Source: an uncultured Coriobacteriaceae bacterium (lineage in GTDB: Bacteria; Actinomycetota; Coriobacteriia; Coriobacteriales; Atopobiaceae). Taken from it: 64,000 nucleotides of DNA. Below, in pieces: positions 42,156 through 55,419 of the stretch. The notes under the pieces were generated by a model. That model was not told where the DNA came from. It was given only the letters and a program-made list of their open reading frames with translations, and did no database searches. Each line of letters opens with the position of its first letter. Within the stretch, counting starts at the first letter, position 1. The stretch is from positions 124,001 to 188,000 of the forward strand of contig CADAAU010000001.1 in assembly GCA_902786015.1 (NCBI GenBank), given 5' to 3'. The translations under genes and the position numbers were made by a program.

Positions 42156-44627
42156 TTGAGGCAACAAAAGCACGGGACGGGAAGCAATGCGAGAATTATG
42201 GCATCTATCGTTGCCGCGCCATTGCTCTGCATGGGATTAATGCCTGCGCCTGCGTTGGCCTATGTGGCCGGTACTGATGCGTTGGCAAACAAGGAGTACA
42301 TGTCCTCCACAGAGGTAGTGCCTGGGGAGGAAGATGGACAAATTGATAACTCCCAAGTCATTTTGCAATCGGAGAAGTCGTTCACGACCGGTGACAATGT
42401 TTCCGATAGTTCGGAAATGGGCATATCGGTCGGGACGAACGATTATGGCGAGACTGATCTCAAATCCTTGCTCGATGACAAAACAAAAGAAGTTGCATCC
42501 CAAATCCGCGAGGAGGCTGGCGAGGATGCATCTATTGCTCATCTTGTCGAGGTGTTGTATCTGAGACTGGGTAGGGTTTCGGTCGATTTTGACTATCCCA
42601 AAGACGATCGGGACGCGAAGTCGCAGGCAATTGCTGCCTTGAGCGGCGAGCCGTCGACGCCGCGCGGGCTTTGTGATGCTTTTGAGGCCGTGGCGCGACA
42701 GTTGGGGATTGACTGTAGGACGATTGAAGGCGCCGACGGCTCGCGTTGGAATTTGGTGCTTGTGGATGGCGCTTGGTACCATGTGGACGTTGCTGCCGCA
42801 GCTGCCGAGTTTGCGGGACATGGTGATGTGTCGAATGGTGATGTCCCGCGTAAATGGTTGCTTGTGGGAGATGCCACGATTACCTCTATCGCGTTGGCAC
42901 GCTCGCCGTGGCAGGCGGTCGACGGGCAAGACGGGGAGATTCCCGCGGCCCAAAACGACTGGACCAATGACGACGGTTCTGGGCTTAGTGCCCAGGGAGA
43001 GACAAGAGACCTCTCTGCGGCAAAGGTGGAGGCAATTGCGGATCAGGCCTACACGGGAAAGGAGATAACTCCCCAGCCAATAGTCACGCTTGGGGGAACG
43101 ACGCTGCAGCTTGGCACGGACTATTCCGTCGCGTATACGGATAACGTCAATCCTGGAAAGGCGACGGTAACTATAACGGGTGCGGGATCATATACTGGTA
43201 CGTGTAACTCGAGTTTTGCTATCGTGGTTCCAAGCGTGTCTTATCGCGTCCACGTCCAAACGTATGGCGACCAAGAAGCAAGGAATGACGGTGGAGTCGC
43301 AGGTACCTCTGGCGAGTCCAAGCGTCTGGAAGGCATATGGATTAGCCTTGGCTCTGGTTTTCCTGTTTCCGGTGGCATTACCTATCGTACACACGTCCAA
43401 ACGTATGGCTGGCAGGACTGGAGTTCCGATGGTCAGATGGCCGGCACAACTGGCGAGTCCAAGCGTCTCGAGGCAATAGAAATCAAGCTTACTGGCGATA
43501 TGGAGCAGGCGTATGACGTCTACTATCGTGCCCATGCGCAACGCATCGGCTGGCTGGCTTGGGCAAAGAATGGTGAGACTGCCGGCACATCGGGGCTTTC
43601 TTATCGGCTCGAGGCCATGCAGATTGTGATAGTGCCAAAAGGCGAAGCCGCTCCAACAGATGTTGCCGAAGTATCTTCTGCCGTTTCGTTTGCGTATTTG
43701 GGAAACCCCGGAGTTACCTATCATTCCCACGTGCAGACGTATGGGTGGCAGGATTGGGTCAATGACGGAGAGATGAGTGGAACCACGGGTGAGTCAAAGA
43801 GGCTCGAGGGTTTTGAGGCGAAGCTTGGTGCATCGGCGAATGGTGGCATAGAGTATCGAACGCACGTCCAGACCTACGGTTGGCAGGACTGGAAGGCGGA
43901 TGGTGAGATGTCGGGAACCGAGGGAGAGTCCAAGCGCCTGGAAGCGCTGCAGATTCGTTTGACGGGTGATCTGGCAAATCACTTTGACGTATGGTATAGG
44001 ACGCATGTGCAGACTTTTGGATGGCTTGGATGGGCAAAGAACGGAGAATCTGCAGGTACCGAGGGCCTTTCTAGGCGTATGGAAACGATGCAGGTGTGCA
44101 TTCTTCCCAAGGGATCTGCTGCCCCCGGTAGCACGGATCAAGCGTTTTTGGATAAGGATCCCACGCTTAGCGGCGATCCGGAGCTCGATGCGATGATTGG
44201 CCAGTTCATTGGCCAGACAGGTACGGGCTATGAAGGCCTGCGTCGTGCATATGACATCATCAGTAGTTATTTGTATAGTCAGGGAAACAGGTGGCCAGGT
44301 CCCAATTGGGAGGAATGGTCGATTCCCTACGCCAAAGAGATGTATCTCAATCACACGGGCAACTGTTATCGCTACGCTTCGCTCATGTGCTGGACGGCGC
44401 GAAGGCTTGGATATGATGCCAAGGTCGTTCCTGGATGGATTCCAGGAAGAGTGAACCCTCGCTGCGACCATGGATGGGTCGAGGTGTTTCTCGACGGTCA
44501 GATATACGTTATCGATGCCGAGATGAATGGCAACGATGGCTATCCCGAGTACAACTGGTTCATGATTAAGTATGCGGATGCGTTTCTGCGTTACTACGAC
44601 CTGAACGACAACCGGATACTTCGATAA
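42156..44627 (+). CDS. Secreted wall protein: two transglutaminase-like domains around six ChW repeats
   Basis: 823 residues from TTG 42156, with GGAGGAAGG at 42145-42153. Signal peptide (about 1-36: IMASIVAAPLLCMGLMPAPALA). A first transglutaminase-like domain (about 110-230) has Cys173 and Asp211 in YHVD, but the usual HAW histidine position reads SRW. An Ig-like YTGKEITPQPIV domain (about 299-357) follows, then six ChW repeats (about 360-655, e.g. YRTHVQTYGWQDWSSDGQ), in two sets of three. A C-terminal transglutaminase-like domain (about 675-823) keeps Cys737, His772 and Asp787. ChW repeats bind peptidoglycan or surface partners; the C-terminal domain may act as a protease or cross-linker. 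Confidence 0.88.
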   Translation: MRQQKHGTGSNARIMASIVAAPLLCMGLMPAPALAYVAGTDALANKEYMSSTEVVPGEEDGQIDNSQVILQSEKSFTTGDNVSDSSEMGISVGTNDYGETDLKSLLDDKTKEVASQIREEAGEDASIAHLVEVLYLRLGRVSVDFDYPKDDRDAKSQAIAALSGEPSTPRGLCDAFEAVARQLGIDCRTIEGADGSRWNLVLVDGAWYHVDVAAAAAEFAGHGDVSNGDVPRKWLLVGDATITSIALARSPWQAVDGQDGEIPAAQNDWTNDDGSGLSAQGETRDLSAAKVEAIADQAYTGKEITPQPIVTLGGTTLQLGTDYSVAYTDNVNPGKATVTITGAGSYTGTCNSSFAIVVPSVSYRVHVQTYGDQEARNDGGVAGTSGESKRLEGIWISLGSGFPVSGGITYRTHVQTYGWQDWSSDGQMAGTTGESKRLEAIEIKLTGDMEQAYDVYYRAHAQRIGWLAWAKNGETAGTSGLSYRLEAMQIVIVPKGEAAPTDVAEVSSAVSFAYLGNPGVTYHSHVQTYGWQDWVNDGEMSGTTGESKRLEGFEAKLGASANGGIEYRTHVQTYGWQDWKADGEMSGTEGESKRLEALQIRLTGDLANHFDVWYRTHVQTFGWLGWAKNGESAGTEGLSRRMETMQVCILPKGSAAPGSTDQAFLDKDPTLSGDPELDAMIGQFIGQTGTGYEGLRRAYDIISSYLYSQGNRWPGPNWEEWSIPYAKEMYLNHTGNCYRYASLMCWTARRLGYDAKVVPGWIPGRVNPRCDHGWVEVFLDGQIYVIDAEMNGNDGYPEYNWFMIKYADAFLRYYDLNDNRILR

Positions 44628-44664: not shown

Positions 44665-45450
44665 ATGGCGAACAGACAGACGCTCAAGTGTGTGGGAACG
44701 AGTGTTATTGCCGGTGCTTGTGCAGCACTGCTGAGCGTTACGCTCGTTGCGTGCGGATCGAATCAGCCAGAAGACACGGCGAATACGCAGCAGCAGGTTG
44801 CTCAGACGGAGCCCGCTGCGACGGTTGACGAGAAAGAGCAAAGCTCGGCTCCCCAGACGACGAACGCCACCTCCATTGGCGAGTCGGGGAGCGAGGCGAC
44901 GAAAGTCGAGGTCATCAATGGACTGAAATCGGACGTGACTTCGTTCAAGATGCGTTCTTCAGCCGATACCAGCTGGGGAGCGGAGCTACTCAAGAGTGGC
45001 GAGACAATAAAGAGCAACGGCATGGTTGAGTTGGGGTTCGTAAATAAGGACGATGTGGACTCATACGACATAATCGTGGTGGACGTGAATGGCACCAAGG
45101 TCGAGGTCGATGGCCTTGATCTCGTCTCCATCGCAGAGCTAAAAATCCAAGTTGACGCCAACGGCAGTGGCTACGCAACCTTCAAGGGCACTGACGGAAG
45201 TACGGGAACGACCGAGCAGAAACAAGACGGCGGTTCTGACGACGGGGCTGTGGCTGCGGCGACAAACGAGCAAAACCAATCGGATGAGGCTTACAGTAAC
45301 GATTACGCGGAACCTGTCAGTAGTCCCGAACCGGTGGAGACGTATGTTGAGGTGGCTCCCGAGCCGGTTGTTGAGGTGGCTCCCGAGCCGGAGACACCCG
45401 CTCAGACAGCTGACGATTGCACTCGCGATAACGTGGTGCTCGACATCTAG
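44665..45450 (+). CDS. Lipoprotein, function unknown
   Basis: 261 residues. Lipoprotein signal peptide with lipobox LVAC (Cys about 30: AALLSVTLVACGSN). After an acidic Ser/Thr/Gln linker (31-75) comes a small beta domain (about 76-165: VEVINGLKSDVTSFKMRSS, LKSGETIKSNG, YDIIVVDVNGTKVEVDGLD). The tail is low complexity with EVAPEPVVEVAPEPE repeats. The gene follows the ChW protein by 37 bases and shares its terminator, so the two may work together at the surface. Confidence 0.8.
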   Translation: MANRQTLKCVGTSVIAGACAALLSVTLVACGSNQPEDTANTQQQVAQTEPAATVDEKEQSSAPQTTNATSIGESGSEATKVEVINGLKSDVTSFKMRSSADTSWGAELLKSGETIKSNGMVELGFVNKDDVDSYDIIVVDVNGTKVEVDGLDLVSIAELKIQVDANGSGYATFKGTDGSTGTTEQKQDGGSDDGAVAAATNEQNQSDEAYSNDYAEPVSSPEPVETYVEVAPEPVVEVAPEPETPAQTADDCTRDNVVLDI

Positions 45451-45498
45451 TGCAGACAGTTTGGCACAAAACTACATGGGAAGTCTGTGCCAGACAAT

Positions 45499-45548
45499 AA
45501 AAACGCGCCACCCCCTGCTATGCACGTTGCCACCGGGGTGGCGTTTTG
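45499..45548. terminator. Bidirectional terminator
   Basis: GCCACCCC (45506-45513) pairs with GGGGTGGC (45535-45542), with AAAAACGC before and GCGTTTTG after. It separates the lipoprotein gene from the convergent propeller-MFS gene. Confidence 0.85.
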
Positions 45549-45565: not shown

Positions 45566-48514
45566 CTAGGTGTTGCGCATCACGGTGGAACGCGTGGTGG
45601 CAAAGAAAAGAATCGCACAGGACACGCAGAGAACTCCGAGCACAAGCGGAGCCGACCTGCTCTCCTGCGTCACCAAAAAGCCCAGCATGAGGGGGCGAAT
45701 CACCAGCTCGACGCTGTTCGTGGCGAACATCGCGCCGGTCGCCTTTCCCGCAGGCAGCCCGTGTTTCTTTGCGGAACTCAGCCACATACCCTTCCATCCG
45801 TCGGAGGCCTTCTTTAGCACTCCTACGAGAGCGATGGCAAATACCGCCCAGTACAAGGTGTTGTTGAGCAAAAACAGAAGGAATGTCGCGCCCAGTAGTG
45901 CGACTGCCGAAATCGACACGCTCCATTTTCCATGCCTGCTTTCTAGGCTCTCGATAAGTGGAATGCAGACGAGCACCACGAGCTGGCCGAGTACGCACAA
46001 ATTGTTGATTGTCGCCGTACTCAATCCGACGTTCGAGGAGAAAAGCGGGAAGAGGAACGAGTTGTATCCGGCGGCGATGGTCGCGGGAAACATGATGAGC
46101 AAGGTATCCGCAAGTGTCTCGCGGCTAAAGAGGAATCGGCGCAAGATGATGCGTGTGTTCTCGTCGCGGTTGCGCTCGCGTTCGAGCGGTTTTCCGTTGG
46201 CGGGGAAGAGCATGAGCGCAAACATCATCACTGCCAGGCTTGCCAAGGCGACAACGACGTATACCCATGCGTTGCCGAGGGTCGATGCGGCAAAGGCGCC
46301 AAGCACGGTGCCAAATGCGGCAGCGGAAGTGTCGGTGCGCTTGATACCCCCGGCGGCGAGCTGCTGCACCTCTGGCGTCTCGGCACGGCGCGGCAGTGAG
46401 TAACTCAGTGTGTAGAGCAGGCCAAAGGGAAGCGCCATGGTGAGCTTGGCCGCGCAATACAGCTCAAAGCTTCCTTTGCCTACGGCCATCATTGCCGCGA
46501 GCGCGCCTAGAGCCATGATGGCCGCGCTGCGCGCCATGAGCTTTCGGAGCTCTATGCGTGGGCCAAAGAAGCCATATGCAGCATGACCGACCGCCATGCC
46601 CAAACCGAGCATGACCGCTGGTAGTGCCACCAACATGGCGTTGCCTGCATGTGAAGTCTGCTGCAAAAGTGCCTTGGCAATGAGGGTGCTCATCACGGCG
46701 TCGATGCTCGAGAGCGTGGTGACGCAGAACGAGAACGGTCTGGTGAGGACCGCCAGCGAGTCTTTTGCATTGCTACGCTGGAGCTCGCGATACGTAAGCA
46801 GGCAACGACCGCAGTGGCGAATCTCTACGTACGAGATATACACCACGAGCAAGATTGCAAGAATCGCGATGGTGCGTTCCAAGAGCGTGTCACGCAAGGT
46901 TGCTTCGAACGATTTTTGGCTGCTGCCGATTTCAATGACTCCGACTATCGAAGTGCTATCAGCGGAGGGAATGCTCACCAGACGGTATTGTGTCTCGTCG
47001 TAGAGGGACTGTCCCTTATGTAAATCGTCGCTCATGGTTTCGGGCGAGAAGGCCGCCTCAATGTTTGGGGTGGTGGAGGGGTTGTTGGAGCTAGTCCCCA
47101 TGACGTTTTCCATGGCACTGTCGTAAAGATAAAAGATGCCCTTTTCGTCTTTTGCATATACGGCGAAGTAGCTACCGACCTCGTTCGTGTTGGCTGATGT
47201 GCACAGGGAGCCCACAATGTCGTCGACGTTCGAGAGTGCGTTATATGCCTCAACAAACGAACTGTCGCTACGTCGGAATGCGTCGCGTTTGCCACACAAA
47301 ACCAAATCGTCTCTTAGCTTGGGCGAAACCTCTTTAAGATAATCGGCGAAGGTATTGATTTCGTTGGCTCGAATCGAGAGCGACTGTTTGTACGATCCAT
47401 AGGATGCATAACCAAGGGCGATTGCCATTGATACGACGACGGTGGTCGAGGCAAAGAGCGCTCCGAGACCGCCGATGCCATCTTTGATAACGGCGCGAGC
47501 CCAATGAATGATTGCCCATACGAGGAGCGCGACGAGCGCGATGCGGCAGGCCCATGCGATTGCTACATAGAACGAAAGGAGGGGGTCAAGCGGAACAGTG
47601 CTGAACTCAGTGACGGGGTTACCGGAGAAGTCGTAGATTCCTATCATATTGTTTCCAGAGCTGCATCCGCACACGAGACTTTCGTTCGCATGAAGATGCT
47701 CGTACCTGTGACCTTTCGCAAACGGGATCGCTTTCATTGACTCGTCAACAAGAAAGAGGTCTCCCGAAATGTCGTCCGAGACGATGACGGTGCCATTCTT
47801 TGTCATGTCTACGGCGAGTAGGGTCTTGTTGTCGAGTGCGAAGGCGTCCGATCCAAACATGGCGTCGTTGATGAGGCCTTGAGGACCGACGATTATGAAG
47901 TCGTTGAGCTCGTAACTAAAGCCCACGTCGTGTACAAGCGGGACTTCTAGGTCGTACGACGAGATGACATTCGCCGAGTCGGTTGTGTCTGCCAGCTGGA
48001 CAAAGTCGATGGATGCCTTGTTTTCCTCTTCATCTTCCCTATAAACTGCGGCGATGGCTCCTCTGTCTGAGTCAAATATGGATACGATCGAACGAACGAT
48101 GGAGACGCTTTTTTTGGTTTCGTACACGATGGAAGAGTTTCTGCCCTTCATGTCGTATCGAACGATGCGTTCCTGCTCGATGAGGTCGCCGCCCTTGTAG
48201 TGACGAACGCCACACACATACAACGCATTGTTTGATATGCACACGTCGGTAATGGCGTCAACGGGGGAGTTGAGGGAATCGAGGCTGACGATAGCCGTGA
48301 GCTGGTGCTTATCGTTGAGGACAAGGAGGCGGCGAGCTTCCTTGTCCGCCACAAGTGTAATGTCGCCGTTGGAGTCACTCGCGACGGGCGTTTCGAGCGC
48401 GATGGGAGAGAATGGCGAGGAGGGGAGTACGGTCCCAAAGGACGCAAGCGTTACAAGCGTGCTTATGACGGCGATGATTCCAACGACGATCCGGATGATG
48501 GTTCGCTTGTTCAT
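45566..48514 (-). CDS. Propeller-sensor-MFS transporter fusion protein
   Basis: 982 residues from ATG 48514 (AGGAGA upstream on the reverse strand); the longer open frame reaches into the GH3 gene and is rejected. Order: membrane helix 7-25; a beta-propeller-like region about 45-305 (repeats such as DITLVADKEARRLLVLND and NMIGIYDFSGNPVTEF); helices about 312-337 and 347-370; a Cache-like sensor about 371-540 (FAVYAKDEKGIFYLYD, YRLVSIPSADSTSIVGVIEIG); helix about 546-563; then a ten- to twelve-helix MFS transporter (about 590-980). The MFS part has GLGMAVGHAAYGFFGPR and a late GVLKKASDGWKGMW. Encoded 29 bases after the GH3 gene, so probably one operon. I know of no described family with this order. 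Confidence 0.8.
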   Translation of the reverse strand: MNKRTIIRIVVGIIAVISTLVTLASFGTVLPSSPFSPIALETPVASDSNGDITLVADKEARRLLVLNDKHQLTAIVSLDSLNSPVDAITDVCISNNALYVCGVRHYKGGDLIEQERIVRYDMKGRNSSIVYETKKSVSIVRSIVSIFDSDRGAIAAVYREDEEENKASIDFVQLADTTDSANVISSYDLEVPLVHDVGFSYELNDFIIVGPQGLINDAMFGSDAFALDNKTLLAVDMTKNGTVIVSDDISGDLFLVDESMKAIPFAKGHRYEHLHANESLVCGCSSGNNMIGIYDFSGNPVTEFSTVPLDPLLSFYVAIAWACRIALVALLVWAIIHWARAVIKDGIGGLGALFASTTVVVSMAIALGYASYGSYKQSLSIRANEINTFADYLKEVSPKLRDDLVLCGKRDAFRRSDSSFVEAYNALSNVDDIVGSLCTSANTNEVGSYFAVYAKDEKGIFYLYDSAMENVMGTSSNNPSTTPNIEAAFSPETMSDDLHKGQSLYDETQYRLVSIPSADSTSIVGVIEIGSSQKSFEATLRDTLLERTIAILAILLVVYISYVEIRHCGRCLLTYRELQRSNAKDSLAVLTRPFSFCVTTLSSIDAVMSTLIAKALLQQTSHAGNAMLVALPAVMLGLGMAVGHAAYGFFGPRIELRKLMARSAAIMALGALAAMMAVGKGSFELYCAAKLTMALPFGLLYTLSYSLPRRAETPEVQQLAAGGIKRTDTSAAAFGTVLGAFAASTLGNAWVYVVVALASLAVMMFALMLFPANGKPLERERNRDENTRIILRRFLFSRETLADTLLIMFPATIAAGYNSFLFPLFSSNVGLSTATINNLCVLGQLVVLVCIPLIESLESRHGKWSVSISAVALLGATFLLFLLNNTLYWAVFAIALVGVLKKASDGWKGMWLSSAKKHGLPAGKATGAMFATNSVELVIRPLMLGFLVTQESRSAPLVLGVLCVSCAILFFATTRSTVMRNT

Positions 48515-48543
48515 GTTGCGTTCTCCTAGGGCATGGTCCCTGC

Positions 48544-50886
48544 TTAGCGCACGGGCTTTACGGTCAGAATGAGCGAAAGAACGCGTCGCGCCGTCCTTTG
48601 CAACTCCGCGCGGGTTATGCCATCGGGCTTGTCGAGCGATTCGAGCAGGCTGCGATGCACGCGATAACCACGAATAATCCGACCCATGTTGCCGGGCATA
48701 AGTACGTCCACACCGGCGCGGACGCGATAGGCGTTGTCGCGCAGTGCGGGAAACTCGGGCGACCTCGAGCGTTGCATCCACCAGTCGGTGATGACGACGC
48801 CGTCGAAGCCCCATTCGTCGCGGAGCACGGTGGTCACGAGGTCGAAGTTATAGTGCGACCAGACGCCGTTGACTTTGTTGTAACTGGTCATGATGAGTCG
48901 CGGTCGTGACTCGCGCATGCAGATGGCAAAGGGCCGCAAATACACCTCACGCAAGGTCCTCTCGTCGACGCGTACGTCGAGCGAGTTGCGGTCGAGCTCT
49001 TGGTTGTTGCAAGCAAAGTGCTTGGGGCAGGCCTCGACGCCAGCTGAGCGTAATCCTCGCACGACGGCAGATGCCATGTGGCCGCTGACGACGGGGTCTT
49101 CCGAGAAATACTCGAAGTTACGCCCGCAAAGCGGACTGCGATGCAGGTTCATGCCGGGGGCGAGCAGCACGTCGACGCCAGCGCTTGCCGTCTCGTAGCC
49201 GACGAGTGCGTAGAGGTCGCGCACTAAATCGACGTCCCAAGTGCTGGCAAGCGCGGTCGCGCACGGTATGAGTGAGCAGCGTCGTGCCAGGCGTGCTCCA
49301 GAGGGGCCGTCGGCGCAGGTGATGGTGGGGATTCCGCGACGCTGCAGGTCGTGCGTGATACCACCAAAGACCCCTGCGTTGCCAGGGGCGCCCAAAGAGC
49401 TGTTCATCGTGCCGGCTCCGCGCGTGAGGGCCTCGAGTTCGGCGAGGGATAGCTGTGCTATGAGGACGTCGAGGGACTCGCGCCCCGTAGAGACATCCTC
49501 ATACGATACCGGCTCTCCCACATGCCGTGACAGGGTGGGCAGGTGGTAAATGTGCTCCAGTATGCGTGACCGTAGATCGACGTCCTTCGAGCAGATGGGG
49601 ACGAGCTCGTCAAAGACAAGGTCCTCGTCGAGCATGCCCTTGCTCACGAACGTCTTGTTTGCCCTAAAGCGATAGTCGCCTTGCTCAAGCACGAAGGCGC
49701 GACGCGCAGTGTCGAATACCGCTAGGTCCTCAAGGGGTACGTTGATTTCGACTTCCTCGTATGCACCTGGGTCGATTTCGCCCGTCTTTGCGAAGCCTGC
49801 CACCACGAGCAGTGGTTTGTCGATGACGCCGCGAGGTGGTTCGCACCACAGAATGACGGTCTCGCGGCCTCGGTATGTGCCCGTGTTTGTGACGCGAAGA
49901 CGTACCCTCACGTCGGAGCCGCTCCGCTTGCACATGAGCGTTTCGAAGGAGAAGCTGGTGTACGAAAGGCCATGCCCCAGCTTGTAGCGCACGTCATACG
50001 GTCGATAGGTGCAGAGGTGTCGGTATCCCACAAACACCCCCTCGTCGTACTCCTGGCTCTTTGGTTTGCCAAACGTCACGTTGCTGGGGTGATCGTCGAG
50101 ACTTCGCGCGATCGCATCGGTGAGGCGACCTGACGGACATACCCTTCCGTACAGAACGTCTGCCATGGCGTTTCCCGCCTCCATGCCTCCCGGCCATGCG
50201 ACGAGTACGGCGCCGATTCGATCCTCGTACGCGTCGATCCACGAGAGGTCAATGAGGTTGCAGACGTCCAAAATCACGACGGTTCGCTCGAAGGCGTCGG
50301 TGACGACGTCGAGCAGGGCGCGCTCGCCCTTGCTAAGGTAATAGCTTCCGGGTTTTGGCACGAGGTCTTGGTCTTCACCTGCAGAGCGCCCGATGACGAC
50401 GACGGCCGTACGGGACGTCGCCGCGGCCGCGCGGGCGAGGGTGGCCGAGACGGGCATCTCGGGAAGGCCAGTCGGCCAGTGGCCCCAAAAGCCTTCGTCA
50501 GATCCGTGTTTTGGATCGCCACACCACACGCGATAGATTTCGGAGAGCACGTGGTCGTACGAGACGCCCAGGTTGTCCAGCCCGTCGACGAGGTTTACGA
50601 GGTAGGGAGGATTCACGTCGCCGCCGCTGCCCTTTCCCATGTGTACCCAGTCAAGCTGGCAGCGACCAAACACTGCGATGGGGGAGCTTGGCGAAAGGGG
50701 CAGCGTCCCATCGTTTTCGAGCAGGACGCATCCATCGGCCGCGGCACGTCGCAAAATCGCTGGTATCCCGGTTGCCGCATCACCGCCGTCCGATGGAGTG
50801 ACGGAATCCTGCGCCAATCCAGTGCCCATGTACGCTTTGATGACGGTTCGTATGGCCTTCTGTGCGGGTCTCGTTGCATCTATCAT
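48544..50886 (-). CDS. Glycoside hydrolase family 3 enzyme, permuted domain order
   Basis: 780 residues, no signal peptide, so cytoplasmic. The GH3 C-terminal domain comes first (about 45-290: DGCVLLENDGTLPL, AWPGGMEAGNAMADVLYG, SGRL), then a fibronectin-III-like domain (about 325-410), then the catalytic TIM barrel (about 470-770). The barrel has GADGPSG-type CADGPSGARL, LAPGMNLHRSPLCGRNFEYFSEDP (given in outline), KHFACNNQELDRN, and the nucleophile Asp701 in VVITDWWM. The permuted order is known in some GH3 subfamilies. It likely hydrolyses beta-glucosides or related glycosides imported into the cell. Confidence 0.9.
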   Translation of the reverse strand: MIDATRPAQKAIRTVIKAYMGTGLAQDSVTPSDGGDAATGIPAILRRAAADGCVLLENDGTLPLSPSSPIAVFGRCQLDWVHMGKGSGGDVNPPYLVNLVDGLDNLGVSYDHVLSEIYRVWCGDPKHGSDEGFWGHWPTGLPEMPVSATLARAAAATSRTAVVVIGRSAGEDQDLVPKPGSYYLSKGERALLDVVTDAFERTVVILDVCNLIDLSWIDAYEDRIGAVLVAWPGGMEAGNAMADVLYGRVCPSGRLTDAIARSLDDHPSNVTFGKPKSQEYDEGVFVGYRHLCTYRPYDVRYKLGHGLSYTSFSFETLMCKRSGSDVRVRLRVTNTGTYRGRETVILWCEPPRGVIDKPLLVVAGFAKTGEIDPGAYEEVEINVPLEDLAVFDTARRAFVLEQGDYRFRANKTFVSKGMLDEDLVFDELVPICSKDVDLRSRILEHIYHLPTLSRHVGEPVSYEDVSTGRESLDVLIAQLSLAELEALTRGAGTMNSSLGAPGNAGVFGGITHDLQRRGIPTITCADGPSGARLARRCSLIPCATALASTWDVDLVRDLYALVGYETASAGVDVLLAPGMNLHRSPLCGRNFEYFSEDPVVSGHMASAVVRGLRSAGVEACPKHFACNNQELDRNSLDVRVDERTLREVYLRPFAICMRESRPRLIMTSYNKVNGVWSHYNFDLVTTVLRDEWGFDGVVITDWWMQRSRSPEFPALRDNAYRVRAGVDVLMPGNMGRIIRGYRVHRSLLESLDKPDGITRAELQRTARRVLSLILTVKPVR

Positions 50887-50988
50887 GTATTCTCCTCACT
50901 GCTTGAGATAAAGTATATGGGTTTGATTCAAATCTGCCAGAGTCACGGGTCCAAGAGTCTTGATTCGTGTCTGACGAGAGGAGCGCAT

Positions 50989-52218
50989 ATGGGCGCACAA
51001 AAGAGTTTTGACGACCTCGGTCTGACCGGCGAGGTGCTGGCTGCCGTGAATGAGCTCGCTTACGTGGAGCCAACTCCTGTGCAGATGAAGGCGATTCCCG
51101 CGATTCTTGCCGGACGCGACGTTATGGCTGCGGCACAGACGGGCACGGGCAAGACGGCGGCGTTTCTCTTGCCAACCATGAGTAGACTCGATCGCGTGGG
51201 CCGTCGAAGAGGACCATCCATGCTCGTGGTGACGCCCACGCGCGAGCTGGCACAGCAGATCGTGGAGGTCGCCAGCGTCATTTGTGCCCACACGCATCAT
51301 CGAAGCGCGAGCGTCGTCGGTGGCGTGGGTTACGAGCTGCAGCGAGCGGCGCTCAAGCGAGGGTGCGACGTGCTCGTTGCCACGCCGGGTCGCCTGCTCG
51401 ACCTCATGGGAGAGGGAGCCTGCAGTCTGGGAGACGTTGAGGTGCTCGTGCTCGACGAGGCGGACCGCATGCTCGACATGGGCTTCTTGCCCGACATGCG
51501 GCGCATCGTCGCGGCGTGTCCCCAAAATAGACAGACGCTGCTGTTTTCGGCGACGCTCTCTGACGACGTGCTCCAGAACGTGGGAACGCTCGTGCGCGAT
51601 CCCGTGCGCATCGAGGTTGCACCCAAAGGAACAGCGGCGCAGACAATCGAGCAGTACGTGCTGGGTGTTTCGGCAGAGGCAAAGAAGCGTGTGTTGGTGG
51701 AGGTTCTCAGGCGTGAGGGGGCGGATCGAGTCATCGTATTCTGTAGGGGGAAGCATCGCGCGGACCATCTGTGTCGCATTCTTTGCAAGAAGGGCTTCTC
51801 GGCGGCTCCGATCCATGGCAATCGATCGCAAAACCAACGGGCTCGTGCGTTGGCGCAATTCCGTTCGGGCGAGGTGGGGATATTGGTTGCCACTGACGTG
51901 CTGGCCCGTGGTATCGATGTCTCGGAAGTGTCGTATGTGGTCAACGTTGATGTTCCGCATGAGGCGGAAAGCTATATCCATCGCATCGGGCGCACCGGTC
52001 GTGCCGGCGTGCGGGGATGGACGCTCATGTTCGTGGATGAGGACGAGTACCTGGACCTGCGTGACATTGAGCGGCTTATGGGCAAAAAGATCGCCGACTA
52101 TCCAAAGGCGGAAGGACTCGATGTGGGCGAACACCCCGCGCGTCTTGATCCCGCACGATCGCCCCGCGATCGCCTGCCGAGCAAGAAGGCACGCAAGAGG
52201 ACGGGCAGGCGCAGATAG
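50989..52218 (+). CDS. DEAD-box RNA helicase (RhlE-like)
   Basis: 409 residues from ATG 50989 (GAGAGGAG upstream); the upstream part of the open frame is antisense to GH3. Q motif, AQTGTGKT (motif I, Lys56), PTRELAQQ, TPGRLLDLM, VLDEADRML (II), SATL (III), RGIDVSEV and YIHRIGRTGRAG (VI). A short basic tail (LPSKKARKRTGRRR) would bind RNA. Probably acts in ribosome assembly or RNA decay. Divergent from the GH3 gene with a ~100-base spacer. Confidence 0.94.
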   Translation: MGAQKSFDDLGLTGEVLAAVNELAYVEPTPVQMKAIPAILAGRDVMAAAQTGTGKTAAFLLPTMSRLDRVGRRRGPSMLVVTPTRELAQQIVEVASVICAHTHHRSASVVGGVGYELQRAALKRGCDVLVATPGRLLDLMGEGACSLGDVEVLVLDEADRMLDMGFLPDMRRIVAACPQNRQTLLFSATLSDDVLQNVGTLVRDPVRIEVAPKGTAAQTIEQYVLGVSAEAKKRVLVEVLRREGADRVIVFCRGKHRADHLCRILCKKGFSAAPIHGNRSQNQRARALAQFRSGEVGILVATDVLARGIDVSEVSYVVNVDVPHEAESYIHRIGRTGRAGVRGWTLMFVDEDEYLDLRDIERLMGKKIADYPKAEGLDVGEHPARLDPARSPRDRLPSKKARKRTGRRR

Positions 52219-52639: not shown

Positions 52640-53882
52640 CGTAGGAAACGACCTGAGCGTCCAAGGCGTGCGTTATCTGATACTCGGTTCCATTCTCTAC
52701 AAGGACAACGCCCACGGGGACGAGTGGGAGGAGTATAGGCTCCGCAATCACGACGACAGGAGCGAGTCTTGGCTCTCCATCGACATGGGAAACCAAGAGT
52801 ACGAGATGTCCTTTATGATAGGTGCGTCCAAGGCTCCTGACGGGTTTAAGCTGGTAGACTCCGGAACCCAGGTGGTGAGGGGACGCGCGGGCAACGTTGA
52901 CGTCGACATGGGCGAGACGGCTCAGTACGAGACTTGGGAGGATGCCTCCGGGGAACACACCTATTCGGTTGAGCGCTGGAGCGATGAGGTGGAGTATTCC
53001 CGGGGAATGTATGTTGCCCTTGACGACATCAAAGACCTCGGACCTTCTCCTGACGCAAAGAAGGTGAAGTCCTCATCTTCGGGCGTGGGTGGACTCATCA
53101 TTGCCATGTTGGTGGCCGTCGCAATCGGGATGTCGGCGCTATTCTTTGGGGAACGCAACAACACCGACGTGGCCAAGCTGCTTAATGTGAGCGGCGAGTA
53201 CGTACTCGTAAAGGAGGCTTCCACCTCGAATGACGTGTTGGTCTACGCCACTGCGAAGTCGGTCGACGACGCGAGCAAAGACATCATCAACAAGCTCGAG
53301 GGAGAGGTGCAGTCAGTCAAGGAGGACGAGGACGGAACGACGGTCGCGCTGCTTACCGGCAACGAATACATATTGGTCTACGAAGATGTCGGCAAAGACG
53401 ACTTTGACGACGGGGATGACACGCAGGCGAGCAGCGAAGAGCAGACGAAGGCCCCAAATACGGGAGAGACGAAGACTGGGGCAGAGGCACAGGACGAAGA
53501 TGAGGAGGAGGCAAGCGCGGCAGAAGACACGGCAACCAGCAATGACGTGAGCGCACAGTCTGTCTCGGAGTTGATTTCTAACGCAGCTAGTCGAACTTTG
53601 GTGCAAGTTACGAGTCGCCGTCATGCCTATACGACCGACAAGAGACCATATCACTCCAGGTATCTTACCTATCGATGGTATCGCACCTTCTATCGCGCGG
53701 TGGCATATGAGGCCGACACAAAGTCGTACTCGAAAGACGAGTCCTCGTATAGTAACTACAATGGCGAGACGTCAGTGGATAGCACCTCTACCAGCGCCTA
53801 CGAAACATACGCGAGGAGCATCCGGCAACAGAGCGCCGATGCAAAGAAGACATCTGGTGGCGGGACCTCAAGTGGCAAGTAG
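52629..53882 (+). CDS. DUF4178 membrane protein
   Basis: 417 residues from ATG 52629 (GGAGGAGG at 52617-52624), overlapping speD by 11 bases. Residues about 1-140 form a DUF4178 domain (VQGVRYLILGSILYKD, EWEEYRLRN, WLSIDMGNQEYEMSF). One membrane helix follows (about 155-177, GLIIAMLVAVAIGMSALFF), then a soluble domain with an acidic linker and a Ser/Tyr/Arg-rich C-terminal part (YLTYRWYRTFYRAVAYEAD). DUF4178 genes recur beside speD and membrane spermidine synthases in Actinobacteria. Its own activity is unknown. Confidence 0.8.
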   Translation: MRYNVGNDLSVQGVRYLILGSILYKDNAHGDEWEEYRLRNHDDRSESWLSIDMGNQEYEMSFMIGASKAPDGFKLVDSGTQVVRGRAGNVDVDMGETAQYETWEDASGEHTYSVERWSDEVEYSRGMYVALDDIKDLGPSPDAKKVKSSSSGVGGLIIAMLVAVAIGMSALFFGERNNTDVAKLLNVSGEYVLVKEASTSNDVLVYATAKSVDDASKDIINKLEGEVQSVKEDEDGTTVALLTGNEYILVYEDVGKDDFDDGDDTQASSEEQTKAPNTGETKTGAEAQDEDEEEASAAEDTATSNDVSAQSVSELISNAASRTLVQVTSRRHAYTTDKRPYHSRYLTYRWYRTFYRAVAYEADTKSYSKDESSYSNYNGETSVDSTSTSAYETYARSIRQQSADAKKTSGGGTSSGK

Positions 53883-55419
53883 GCACGCGGGATCTACGGA
53901 GGAGCGGGAGGGACTCATAGAGTATCGTCCGCTCCTCTTTGTGGTGCTCATCATATCTGGATGCTCCATGTGCTACGAGCTCATCATAAGCGCGTTGAGC
54001 ACGTATCTTTTGGGCAACAGCGTACTGCAGTATTCGGTGACCATCGGACTGTACATGGCGGCGATGGGCCTAGGCGCCTATCTTTCCAAGTTCGTGACTC
54101 GTCGGCTGTTCAGGCGCTTCGCACAAATCGAGCTGGCGGTAGGACTTTTGGGGGGAACGAGCTCGCTCGTGCTGTTCCTAGCGCACCTGTACCTGCATGG
54201 GTTCAGGATCCTCATGTATGCCCTCGTGATTCTTATCGGCATATTGGTGGGAGCCGAAATCCCCATACTCACACGCATCGTGGAGGAAGACAAGAGGCAC
54301 CTGCGTCTTGCGCTCTCGTCAATATTTTCCATCGACTACATGGGAGGGCTCATCGGCGCGATTGCGTTTCCGCTGCTCCTGTTGCCTCAGTTGGGTTTTT
54401 TTGCCACGTCGTTTTTGTGCGGGCTCATCAATTGCATTGCCGCCTCCATCGTGTTGTGGCGCTACGGTCGGCGCATCGAGGGCGTGGCGTCGCTCAGAGT
54501 CGTGGCAGTGGTGCTCATGGTGGTTATGGCTGTGGGTATGGTGGCGTCCGATCGTCTTTCTACCATGGTTGAGGGCGGGCTTTACCGCGATCACGTTATT
54601 GTCTCGGAGCAGACTCCCTACCAAAAGATCGTGCTCACGCGACGTGTCGATGACTTGCGTCTGTTTTTGGACGGAAACATCCAGTTCTGTTCTCGTGACG
54701 AATATCGATATCACGAGGCGCTCGTTCACGTTCCTATGGCGATGGCGCCCACGCACTCGCATGTCCTCGTGCTCGGCGGAGGTGACGGTCTTGCCGCACG
54801 CGAGATCCTTAAGTACGACGACGTGAGTGACATTACGATTGTCGATATCGACCCGAGCATGACGCAGCTGTGTGCTCAAGACGAGGCCATCGTACGTCTA
54901 AACGAGGGCTCGCTTGTGGACCCACGAGTGAGGGTATGCAACGAGGATGCCAAGCAGTTCTTGCAAGAGAGTCATGATGGGTATGACGTTGTGATAATAG
55001 ACCTGCCTGACCCCAACAGTGAGGCCCTCAACCAGCTCTACACCGATTCGTTCTATCGCCTCGTCGGGAACCATCTTGTGGACGGCGGGGTATTCGTCAC
55101 CCAGTCGACGAGTCCCTATTTTGCGCGCGAAGCGTTTTGGTGCATCAATCAGACGATTTCGTCGGAAGGATTCCACGTCTTGCCCTACCATCTCAATGTG
55201 CCTTCGTTTGGGGAGTGGGGCTTCAATGTCGCGTCGCGGACGGAGCTACACCCCGACGTCAAGATAACGGTGCCGACCTCGTACCTCACGAGTCAAAACG
55301 CTCCGGCGCTCTTTGCGTTCGGTATGGACGAGTCAAAGCCTTCCCACATGAGTAAAAACACACTCAATCACCCCGTGCTCATCGAGTACTACAACAAGGC
55401 GCTTGTTGAATGGGGATAG
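53872..55419 (+). CDS. Membrane-fused polyamine aminopropyltransferase (SpeE-like)
   Basis: About 515 residues from GTG 53872, overlapping the DUF4178 gene by 11 bases; earlier in-frame starts lie deep in that gene. Seven membrane helices (about 20-230: CYELIISALSTYLLGNSVLQ, AAMGLGAYLSKFV, EIPILTRIVEEDK) precede a spermidine-synthase domain (about 245-515). The SAM-type fold motif is VLVLGGGDGLAAREIL (about 296-311), then TIVDIDPSM, IIDLPDPNSEALNQLYTDSFY and TQSTSPYF. The asparagine-containing DLPDPN loop replaces the D-x-x-D-P of soluble SpeE. Transfers aminopropyl groups from decarboxylated SAM, which the speD product would supply. Confidence 0.87.
   Translation: MASRHAGSTEEREGLIEYRPLLFVVLIISGCSMCYELIISALSTYLLGNSVLQYSVTIGLYMAAMGLGAYLSKFVTRRLFRRFAQIELAVGLLGGTSSLVLFLAHLYLHGFRILMYALVILIGILVGAEIPILTRIVEEDKRHLRLALSSIFSIDYMGGLIGAIAFPLLLLPQLGFFATSFLCGLINCIAASIVLWRYGRRIEGVASLRVVAVVLMVVMAVGMVASDRLSTMVEGGLYRDHVIVSEQTPYQKIVLTRRVDDLRLFLDGNIQFCSRDEYRYHEALVHVPMAMAPTHSHVLVLGGGDGLAAREILKYDDVSDITIVDIDPSMTQLCAQDEAIVRLNEGSLVDPRVRVCNEDAKQFLQESHDGYDVVIIDLPDPNSEALNQLYTDSFYRLVGNHLVDGGVFVTQSTSPYFAREAFWCINQTISSEGFHVLPYHLNVPSFGEWGFNVASRTELHPDVKITVPTSYLTSQNAPALFAFGMDESKPSHMSKNTLNHPVLIEYYNKALVEWG

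Follow-up and report, generated by a model that had tools for sequence, protein, structure and literature searches.

UhpC is an MFS-type sensor which acts through the UhpB kinase, and PknD is a signalling protein of Mycobacterium tuberculosis which carries an extracellular NHL propeller. Cache receptors signal across the membrane along a C-terminal helix, which feeds a kinase or a methyl-accepting output domain; the membrane LuxR-type regulators form a class with a C-terminal DNA-binding output. The nearest functional parallel to the protein described here is DcuS-DctA, where a Cache sensor is reported to cooperate with a transporter (PMC8307970, PMC4280142). A survey of Cache domains describes them as the input part of kinases, cyclases, chemoreceptors and similar outputs and gives known signal-transduction outputs for all families but one (PMC4822843); the words transporter and MFS never occur in its main text.

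Within the 64,000-nucleotide stretch of DNA which we analysed, here called the window, a gene on the minus strand (45566..48514) encodes a protein of 982 residues with 16 transmembrane (TM) helices. Its parts, all of which lie on the minus strand, are in order TM helix 1, an NHL-type beta-propeller, a hairpin of two TM helices, a single Cache domain, TM helix 4 and a 12-TM MFS domain, an assignment based on the structural model, hydropathy and a frame which is kept in relatives. A preliminary description of this DNA had proposed that a propeller, a Cache-like sensor and a complete MFS transporter are joined in one 982-residue protein; models, profiles and fold comparisons confirmed this, structure prediction found both outer domains, and we consider the three-domain architecture in one chain to be close to certain. 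The coordinates given there were correct, with the open reading frames placing the gene on the minus strand; the plus strand of 45566-48514 is full of stops. The gene starts with an ATG at 48514, 7 bases after a Shine-Dalgarno-like AGGAGA read in the sequence (48522..48527, minus strand), and its stop codon ends at 45566. A longer open frame to 48814 extends back into the upstream GH3 gene; the nearest relative (L031) starts in the same register as the window protein, at an ATG of its own. The gene is followed by a terminator-like hairpin and then a T run (45495..45545, minus strand), which were read by eye.

Pfam recognises MFS_1 alone in the window protein (PF07690, residues 596-899, E = 1.1e-15, 57.8 bits against a cut-off of 33.4), and the propeller and the Cache domain therefore needed independent proof. 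An AlphaFold2 model based on 28 aligned relatives (mean pLDDT 82.5, pTM 0.67) contains a TM helix at residues 3-25, 22 strands within 45-304, helices at 311-345 and 350-395, a mixed alpha/beta domain at 397-533, a long helix at 536-581 and then the MFS helices. Hydropathy gave 17 segments; one of them (512-530) corresponds to a strand of the Cache domain and the other 16 to TM helices, four of which lie ahead of the MFS. The short loops which are presumed to be cytoplasmic have a net positive charge, and from hydropathy and loop charge together we therefore predict that the propeller and the Cache domain lie outside and that the MFS is entered from the cytoplasm. The N-terminus, the MFS entry and the C-terminus are all cytoplasmic in this predicted 16-TM topology. 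The MFS reaches to within 9 residues of the C-terminus, its loops are short and a cytoplasmic output domain is absent.

TM helix 1 (residues 3-25, 48440..48508; model and hydropathy) anchors the propeller, which is predicted to be extracytoplasmic and spans about residues 27-308 (47591..48436) on the evidence of the model strands and PDB profile matches. The profile of residues 24-310 found 22 PDB sequences at E ≤ 10, of which 21 were beta-propellers: two Tako8 (best E = 4e-9), 17 Pizza designs, which we take to be derived from the PknD propeller, TRIM3 and PknD itself, with NFAT5 as the non-propeller exception; several of the propeller matches had no single stretch which passed on its own. 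In the model the 22 strands fit about six blades, which is probably the true number.

The propeller is followed by the TM hairpin (residues 309-371, 47402..47590; model and hydropathy), whose second helix continues into the stalk of the Cache domain (residues 372-535, 46910..47401; separate model and fold comparison). When folded alone the sensor region gave a model of pLDDT 86.4 and pTM 0.84, with helices at model positions 2-24 and 47-72 followed by five strands. The Cache superfamily has been delimited by a PAS-like sheet preceded by a long N-terminal helix (PMC4822843), and both are present in this model. Fold comparison with the periplasmic domain of CitA gave Z 13.6 and an rmsd of 2.3 over 124/124 chain residues, and further matches included DcuS (3by8, Z 11.8), WalK, DctB, TlpB and a formate receptor, with many Cache sensors at Z 10-13. 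The best Foldseek row was WalK, at an E value of only 1.5e-3. No Pfam Cache model matched the window protein at E 0.1, and sCache_3_2 was matched in 1/16 family members (E = 0.0016). The placement of the domain between TM helices on the extracytoplasmic side is a prediction from hydropathy and the charge of the flanking loops. Residues R382, R410, N444, G447, Y449, Y453, D456 and G459 are invariant in 22/22 aligned rows, and R410, N444, Y449, Y453 and D456 may face a pocket. An hhalign comparison with DcuS was weak (E = 0.062, 32 columns) and the ligand-contacting Arg and His residues of DcuS were not clearly matched; with an alignment this weak, assignment of a ligand from DcuS residues was dropped.

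Model and hydropathy place TM helix 4 and a positively charged cytoplasmic linker at residues 536-590 (46745..46909). Linker residues E564 and C568 are present in 22/22 rows and C571 in 19/22. The resulting CxxC (568/571, 46802-46813), found in 19/22 rows, is juxtamembrane on the cytoplasmic side and could have a metal, redox or structural role.

The complete 12-TM MFS domain (residues 591-975, 45590..46744) was assigned by Pfam MFS_1 and by fold comparison (VIA Z up to 36.6) as having a DHA1-like fold. Its matches were VMAT2 (Z 36.6) and SotB (36.2), with NorA and MdfA also in the range Z 33-37; DHA1 proteins (VMAT2, SotB and NorA on top) are thus the nearest folds, with other MFS within a few Z units, and identity to the DHA1-type matches was 9-16% in the listed rows. 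The fold search with the whole model listed MFS chains only and was uninformative on other folds. MFS_1 was matched by 16/16 family members and the drug efflux model TIGR00880 by 15/16, but the window protein itself does not match TIGR00880. The motif A signature of DHA1 antiporters carries Asp-Arg. Here the Asp is absent, position 652 being S in 16, R in 3, P in 2 and A in 1 of 22 rows, and R653 is kept in 21/22. Asp605 (codon 46700..46702), which lies in the break of MFS TM1, is invariant both in the close rows (22/22) and throughout a divergent set of 10 rows.

We compared this protein to other genomes and found relatives in every same-genus genome searched (16/16; 19/60 relatives overall). 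A scan of one genome per species, made with a pair of peptide patterns that reach no further than close relatives, gave 29 loci, including 21 with intact single frames of > 900 aa. The eight which were not intact comprise two with a broken frame (L045, L048), five cut at contig ends (L047, L050, L052, L053, L055) and L059 (7959-10226), in which residues of about 449-705 are missing with the frame kept, probably through assembly collapse. Copies in G013 and G270:C13 appear split into two frames. All but one of the 29 loci are labelled as Coriobacteriales, its families or its class, the remaining one being labelled only as actinobacterium, and the names of many records refer to gut samples from sheep, yak or roe deer. 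Order-wide, 15/297 genomes matched at 1e-10, and in a phylum sample 2/296 matched at 1e-5, namely the window's genome and one short MFS-only match. No relatives of the fusion were found in the plasmids searched, and the MFS profile found none in the PDB at E 0.01; within the searches made, the family's relatives were found only in Coriobacteriales. Two clades, one of them the main one, are seen in a tree of 27 rows, all without internal stops, along with the second copy of the window's genome and copies of other genera on long branches.

Copies which share only 18-21% identity with the window protein can be aligned to it in every part, and the divergent set of ten has 17 invariant columns, including Asp605 in MFS TM1 and Glu564 just after TM4. 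The fused form is therefore conserved in relatives, and the suggestion that separate genes had been joined by a sequencing or assembly error is ruled out by the 21/29 intact loci, the same-genus genomes and these distant copies. Over 22 rows, mean pairwise identity rises from 0.335 in the propeller and 0.391 in the Cache domain to 0.476 in the TM4-linker and 0.535 in the MFS. That the MFS is the most conserved part and Asp605 is invariant is as expected if the transport core still works, and the combination of a conserved core and variable outer domains is consistent with inputs which change around a shared mechanism of transport or conformational change. When each domain was searched apart in the window's own genome, it was found only in the two fused copies and a propeller remnant. 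This remnant (L098, G000:C2:131419-131850) has an internal stop and is probably a decayed third copy of the fusion.

The genes beside the fusion vary and include an aminoacyl-tRNA synthetase, a Na+/H+ antiporter, an Fe-ADH, a nitroreductase, SpoIIE, EAL/GGDEF and a peptidase. No conserved regulator or kinase was found with Pfam among 40 selected neighbour proteins, one of them from the window, and no C-terminal DNA-binding output was found in any member read, all of which end just past the last TM helix. Elsewhere in the window, 42156-44627 encodes a protein with ChW repeats and a transglutaminase domain (Pfam), and after it 44665-45450 encodes a small protein whose signal is lipoprotein-like; the window's genus is very rich in ChW repeats. 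A 598-residue protein (53623-55419) has a spermidine-synthase domain at 361-541 only, its N-terminal 360 residues having no Pfam match. The minus-strand ORF upstream at 50896-52134 looks spurious, being a histidine-rich antisense frame.

Five genomes, which belong to three families of the order, have genes of a peptide export system beside the fusion or about 3 kb from it. In G278 and G303 (L036, L054) the fusion comes directly after a mini-HlyD, a C39-peptidase ABC transporter and another ABC transporter, in G011 (L038) the mini-HlyD and both ABC transporters come after it, and in G014 (L037) an ABC1 frame comes after it. NCBIfam names this pair NHLP bacteriocin export ABC1 and ABC2, with matches above cut-off in L036 and L038; the ABC1 of L037 is below cut-off (766.6 against 853.3). 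In G057 the same ABC pair lies within 10 kb together with a radical SAM/SPASM gene and a MarR-like frame (named by eye), and the first ABC gene starts about 2.8 kb from the fusion. ABC2 was found in 43/297 genomes, comprising 14/15 with the fusion and 29/282 without it (P = 3e-12), and outside the window's genus the corresponding counts were 6/7 and 29/282 (P = 1.3e-5); counted by genus they were 6/7 and 17/100 (P = 3e-4). All these counts are uncorrected for kinship and habitat. As a control we used the ChW surface repeat, which has an equal prevalence (45/297 genomes). It was found in 10/15 fusion-bearing genomes overall with the window's genus included (P = 4e-6), in 2/7 outside that genus (P = 0.22) and in 2/7 by genus (P = 0.49). 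We treat the co-occurrence with NHLP genes as a lead which is confounded by related genomes, shared habitat and large genomes. The NHLP-type operons themselves contain a strongly shortened HlyD (L036:2948-7883, L054:2936-7853, L038:11043-15998 and L107:4293-9071), for which the HlyD match covers the first 56-59 of 421 positions, below cut-off, in L036, L054 and L038, and which in L107 was seen only by sequence reading; this short adaptor may represent a distinct export variant in Coriobacteriales.

We tentatively favour the reading that the fusion is a sensor-controlled secondary transporter, and would put its probability a little short of even. The Cache domain, alone or with the propeller, would detect an external molecule, and the propeller could bind a peptide, a glycan or a partner protein. 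The last Cache strand would pass into a helix of about 46 residues (536-581) which crosses the membrane and is joined to MFS TM1 by a short conserved linker; in the AlphaFold2 model this helix is continuous from the Cache domain into the membrane. Ligand binding would shift the conformational balance of the MFS, so that transport, probably export, is switched on or off. We assign control of the transporter to the outer modules because this helix leads to MFS TM1 and any other cytoplasmic receiver is absent. The conserved MFS with its invariant Asp605, the TIGR00880 matches and the confinement of the three domains in the own genome to the fused copies, apart from the propeller remnant, also speak for this reading, whereas the missing Asp of motif A and the lack of a clear match to the DcuS ligand residues speak against it. 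Export would be preferred over import, given that DHA1 antiporters have the nearest folds and that the GH3 of the window is no conserved partner. The protein would then be a sensor-controlled exporter, possibly acting in peptide-antibiotic traffic or immunity. The proposal in the preliminary description of a ligand-gated transporter or transceptor is supported as a sensible class of mechanism.

Its further proposal, that a GH3 in the same operon points to glycoside uptake and cleavage, did not hold. A GH3 with inverted domain order (C-terminal domain first; Pfam) does lie on the same strand and ends 29 nt upstream of the fusion (48544..50886, minus strand), which speaks for an importer whose substrate is cleaved by the neighbouring enzyme. 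However, a GH3 like that of the window was found at 0/19 related loci whose upstream sequence extends for 2 kb or more (tblastn to E 1e-3), and the GH3 genes (Pfam) that are present in 21/22 genomes with the fusion adjoin it only in the window's, some copies at contig ends not being judgeable; in G270 and G138 the two genes share a contig at distances of about 45 kb and > 500 kb. Most same-genus genomes carry GH3 frames of 773-811 aa with the same partial profile match (about 60-315) on other contigs. A general partnership with GH3 was rejected, since the neighbourhood is not conserved, and with an MFS fold which is nearest to exporters rather than sugar importers we regard a glycoside importer as very improbable. 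It is also improbable, if rather less so, that the outer domains sense no ligand and instead position an ordinary MFS pump as its cap or adhesive scaffold: of the three domains the propeller diverges most, and WalK, whose extracellular domain is not known to have a small ligand, is among the Cache fold matches, but the five Cache residues which may face a pocket are invariant in 22/22 rows.

A transceptor or pure receptor, in which the MFS senses or relays without transport and signals through a separate partner protein, in the manner of UhpC with UhpB or DctA with DcuS, deserves more weight and is unlikely rather than improbable. Cache and NHL modules are receptor parts, the conserved juxtamembrane Glu564 and Cys568 could form a docking site, and in DcuS/DctA a Cache kinase is reported to work with a transporter as co-sensor (PMC8307970, PMC4280142). 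Against this, the fusion has no output domain, the neighbours scanned include no conserved kinase or regulator and the transport core is strongly conserved. A narrower form of the sensor-controlled transporter, in which the fusion is an accessory of peptide natural products (an exporter, immunity pump or peptide sensor working with NHLP-type bacteriocin export systems), is rather unlikely. The NHLP genes near the fusion argue for it, as does the co-occurrence with ABC2, which holds outside the window's genus and by genus, unlike that of the ChW control. However, the window's own copy, like most others, lies away from any NHLP cluster, neither ABC1 nor ABC2 is present in the fusion-bearing G171, and in the 22 genomes, where ABC1 reaches up to 7 copies per genome, 4/76 ABC1 matches adjoin the fusion against 1/67 GH3 matches, which is no clear difference; the confounding of the co-occurrence also weighs against it. 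In its boldest and doubtful form, the favoured reading would make the fusion a Cache-gated MFS exporter, the first case of direct single-chain control of a transporter by Cache, the most abundant extracellular sensor module of bacteria, by which gut Coriobacteriales sense and expel NHLP-exported peptide antibiotics, their own or those of competitors.

The individual domains of the fusion are known, and their combination is apparently undescribed, as the literature searches turned up no account of a Cache-MFS or a propeller-MFS fusion. If this family does place a Cache domain directly on an MFS, a clade of gut bacteria would offer a single polypeptide in which allosteric control of a secondary transporter by an extracellular ligand could be tested directly. 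The DHA1 drug/proton antiporters (VMAT2, SotB, NorA and MdfA) share the 12-TM fold of its MFS, whereas the fusion lacks the motif A Asp and adds two large outer domains and four TM helices. The sCache kinases CitA and DcuS have, as in the fusion, a Cache fold between two TM helices and a C-terminal helix which runs into the membrane, but they carry a kinase where the fusion has an MFS transporter in the output position, and dicarboxylate-site residues of their type are not clearly recognisable in the fusion. PknD, which was among the profile matches, likewise has an NHL-type propeller outside the membrane on a signalling protein; its partner domain is a kinase, whereas in the fusion the propeller precedes the Cache domain and the transporter. 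UhpC shares the MFS fold in a sensing role, but has no outer domains and works via UhpB. DcuS-DctA, finally, consists of two proteins with a non-MFS transporter which informs the sensor, whereas the fusion is one chain in which information would probably pass in the reverse direction, from sensor to transporter.
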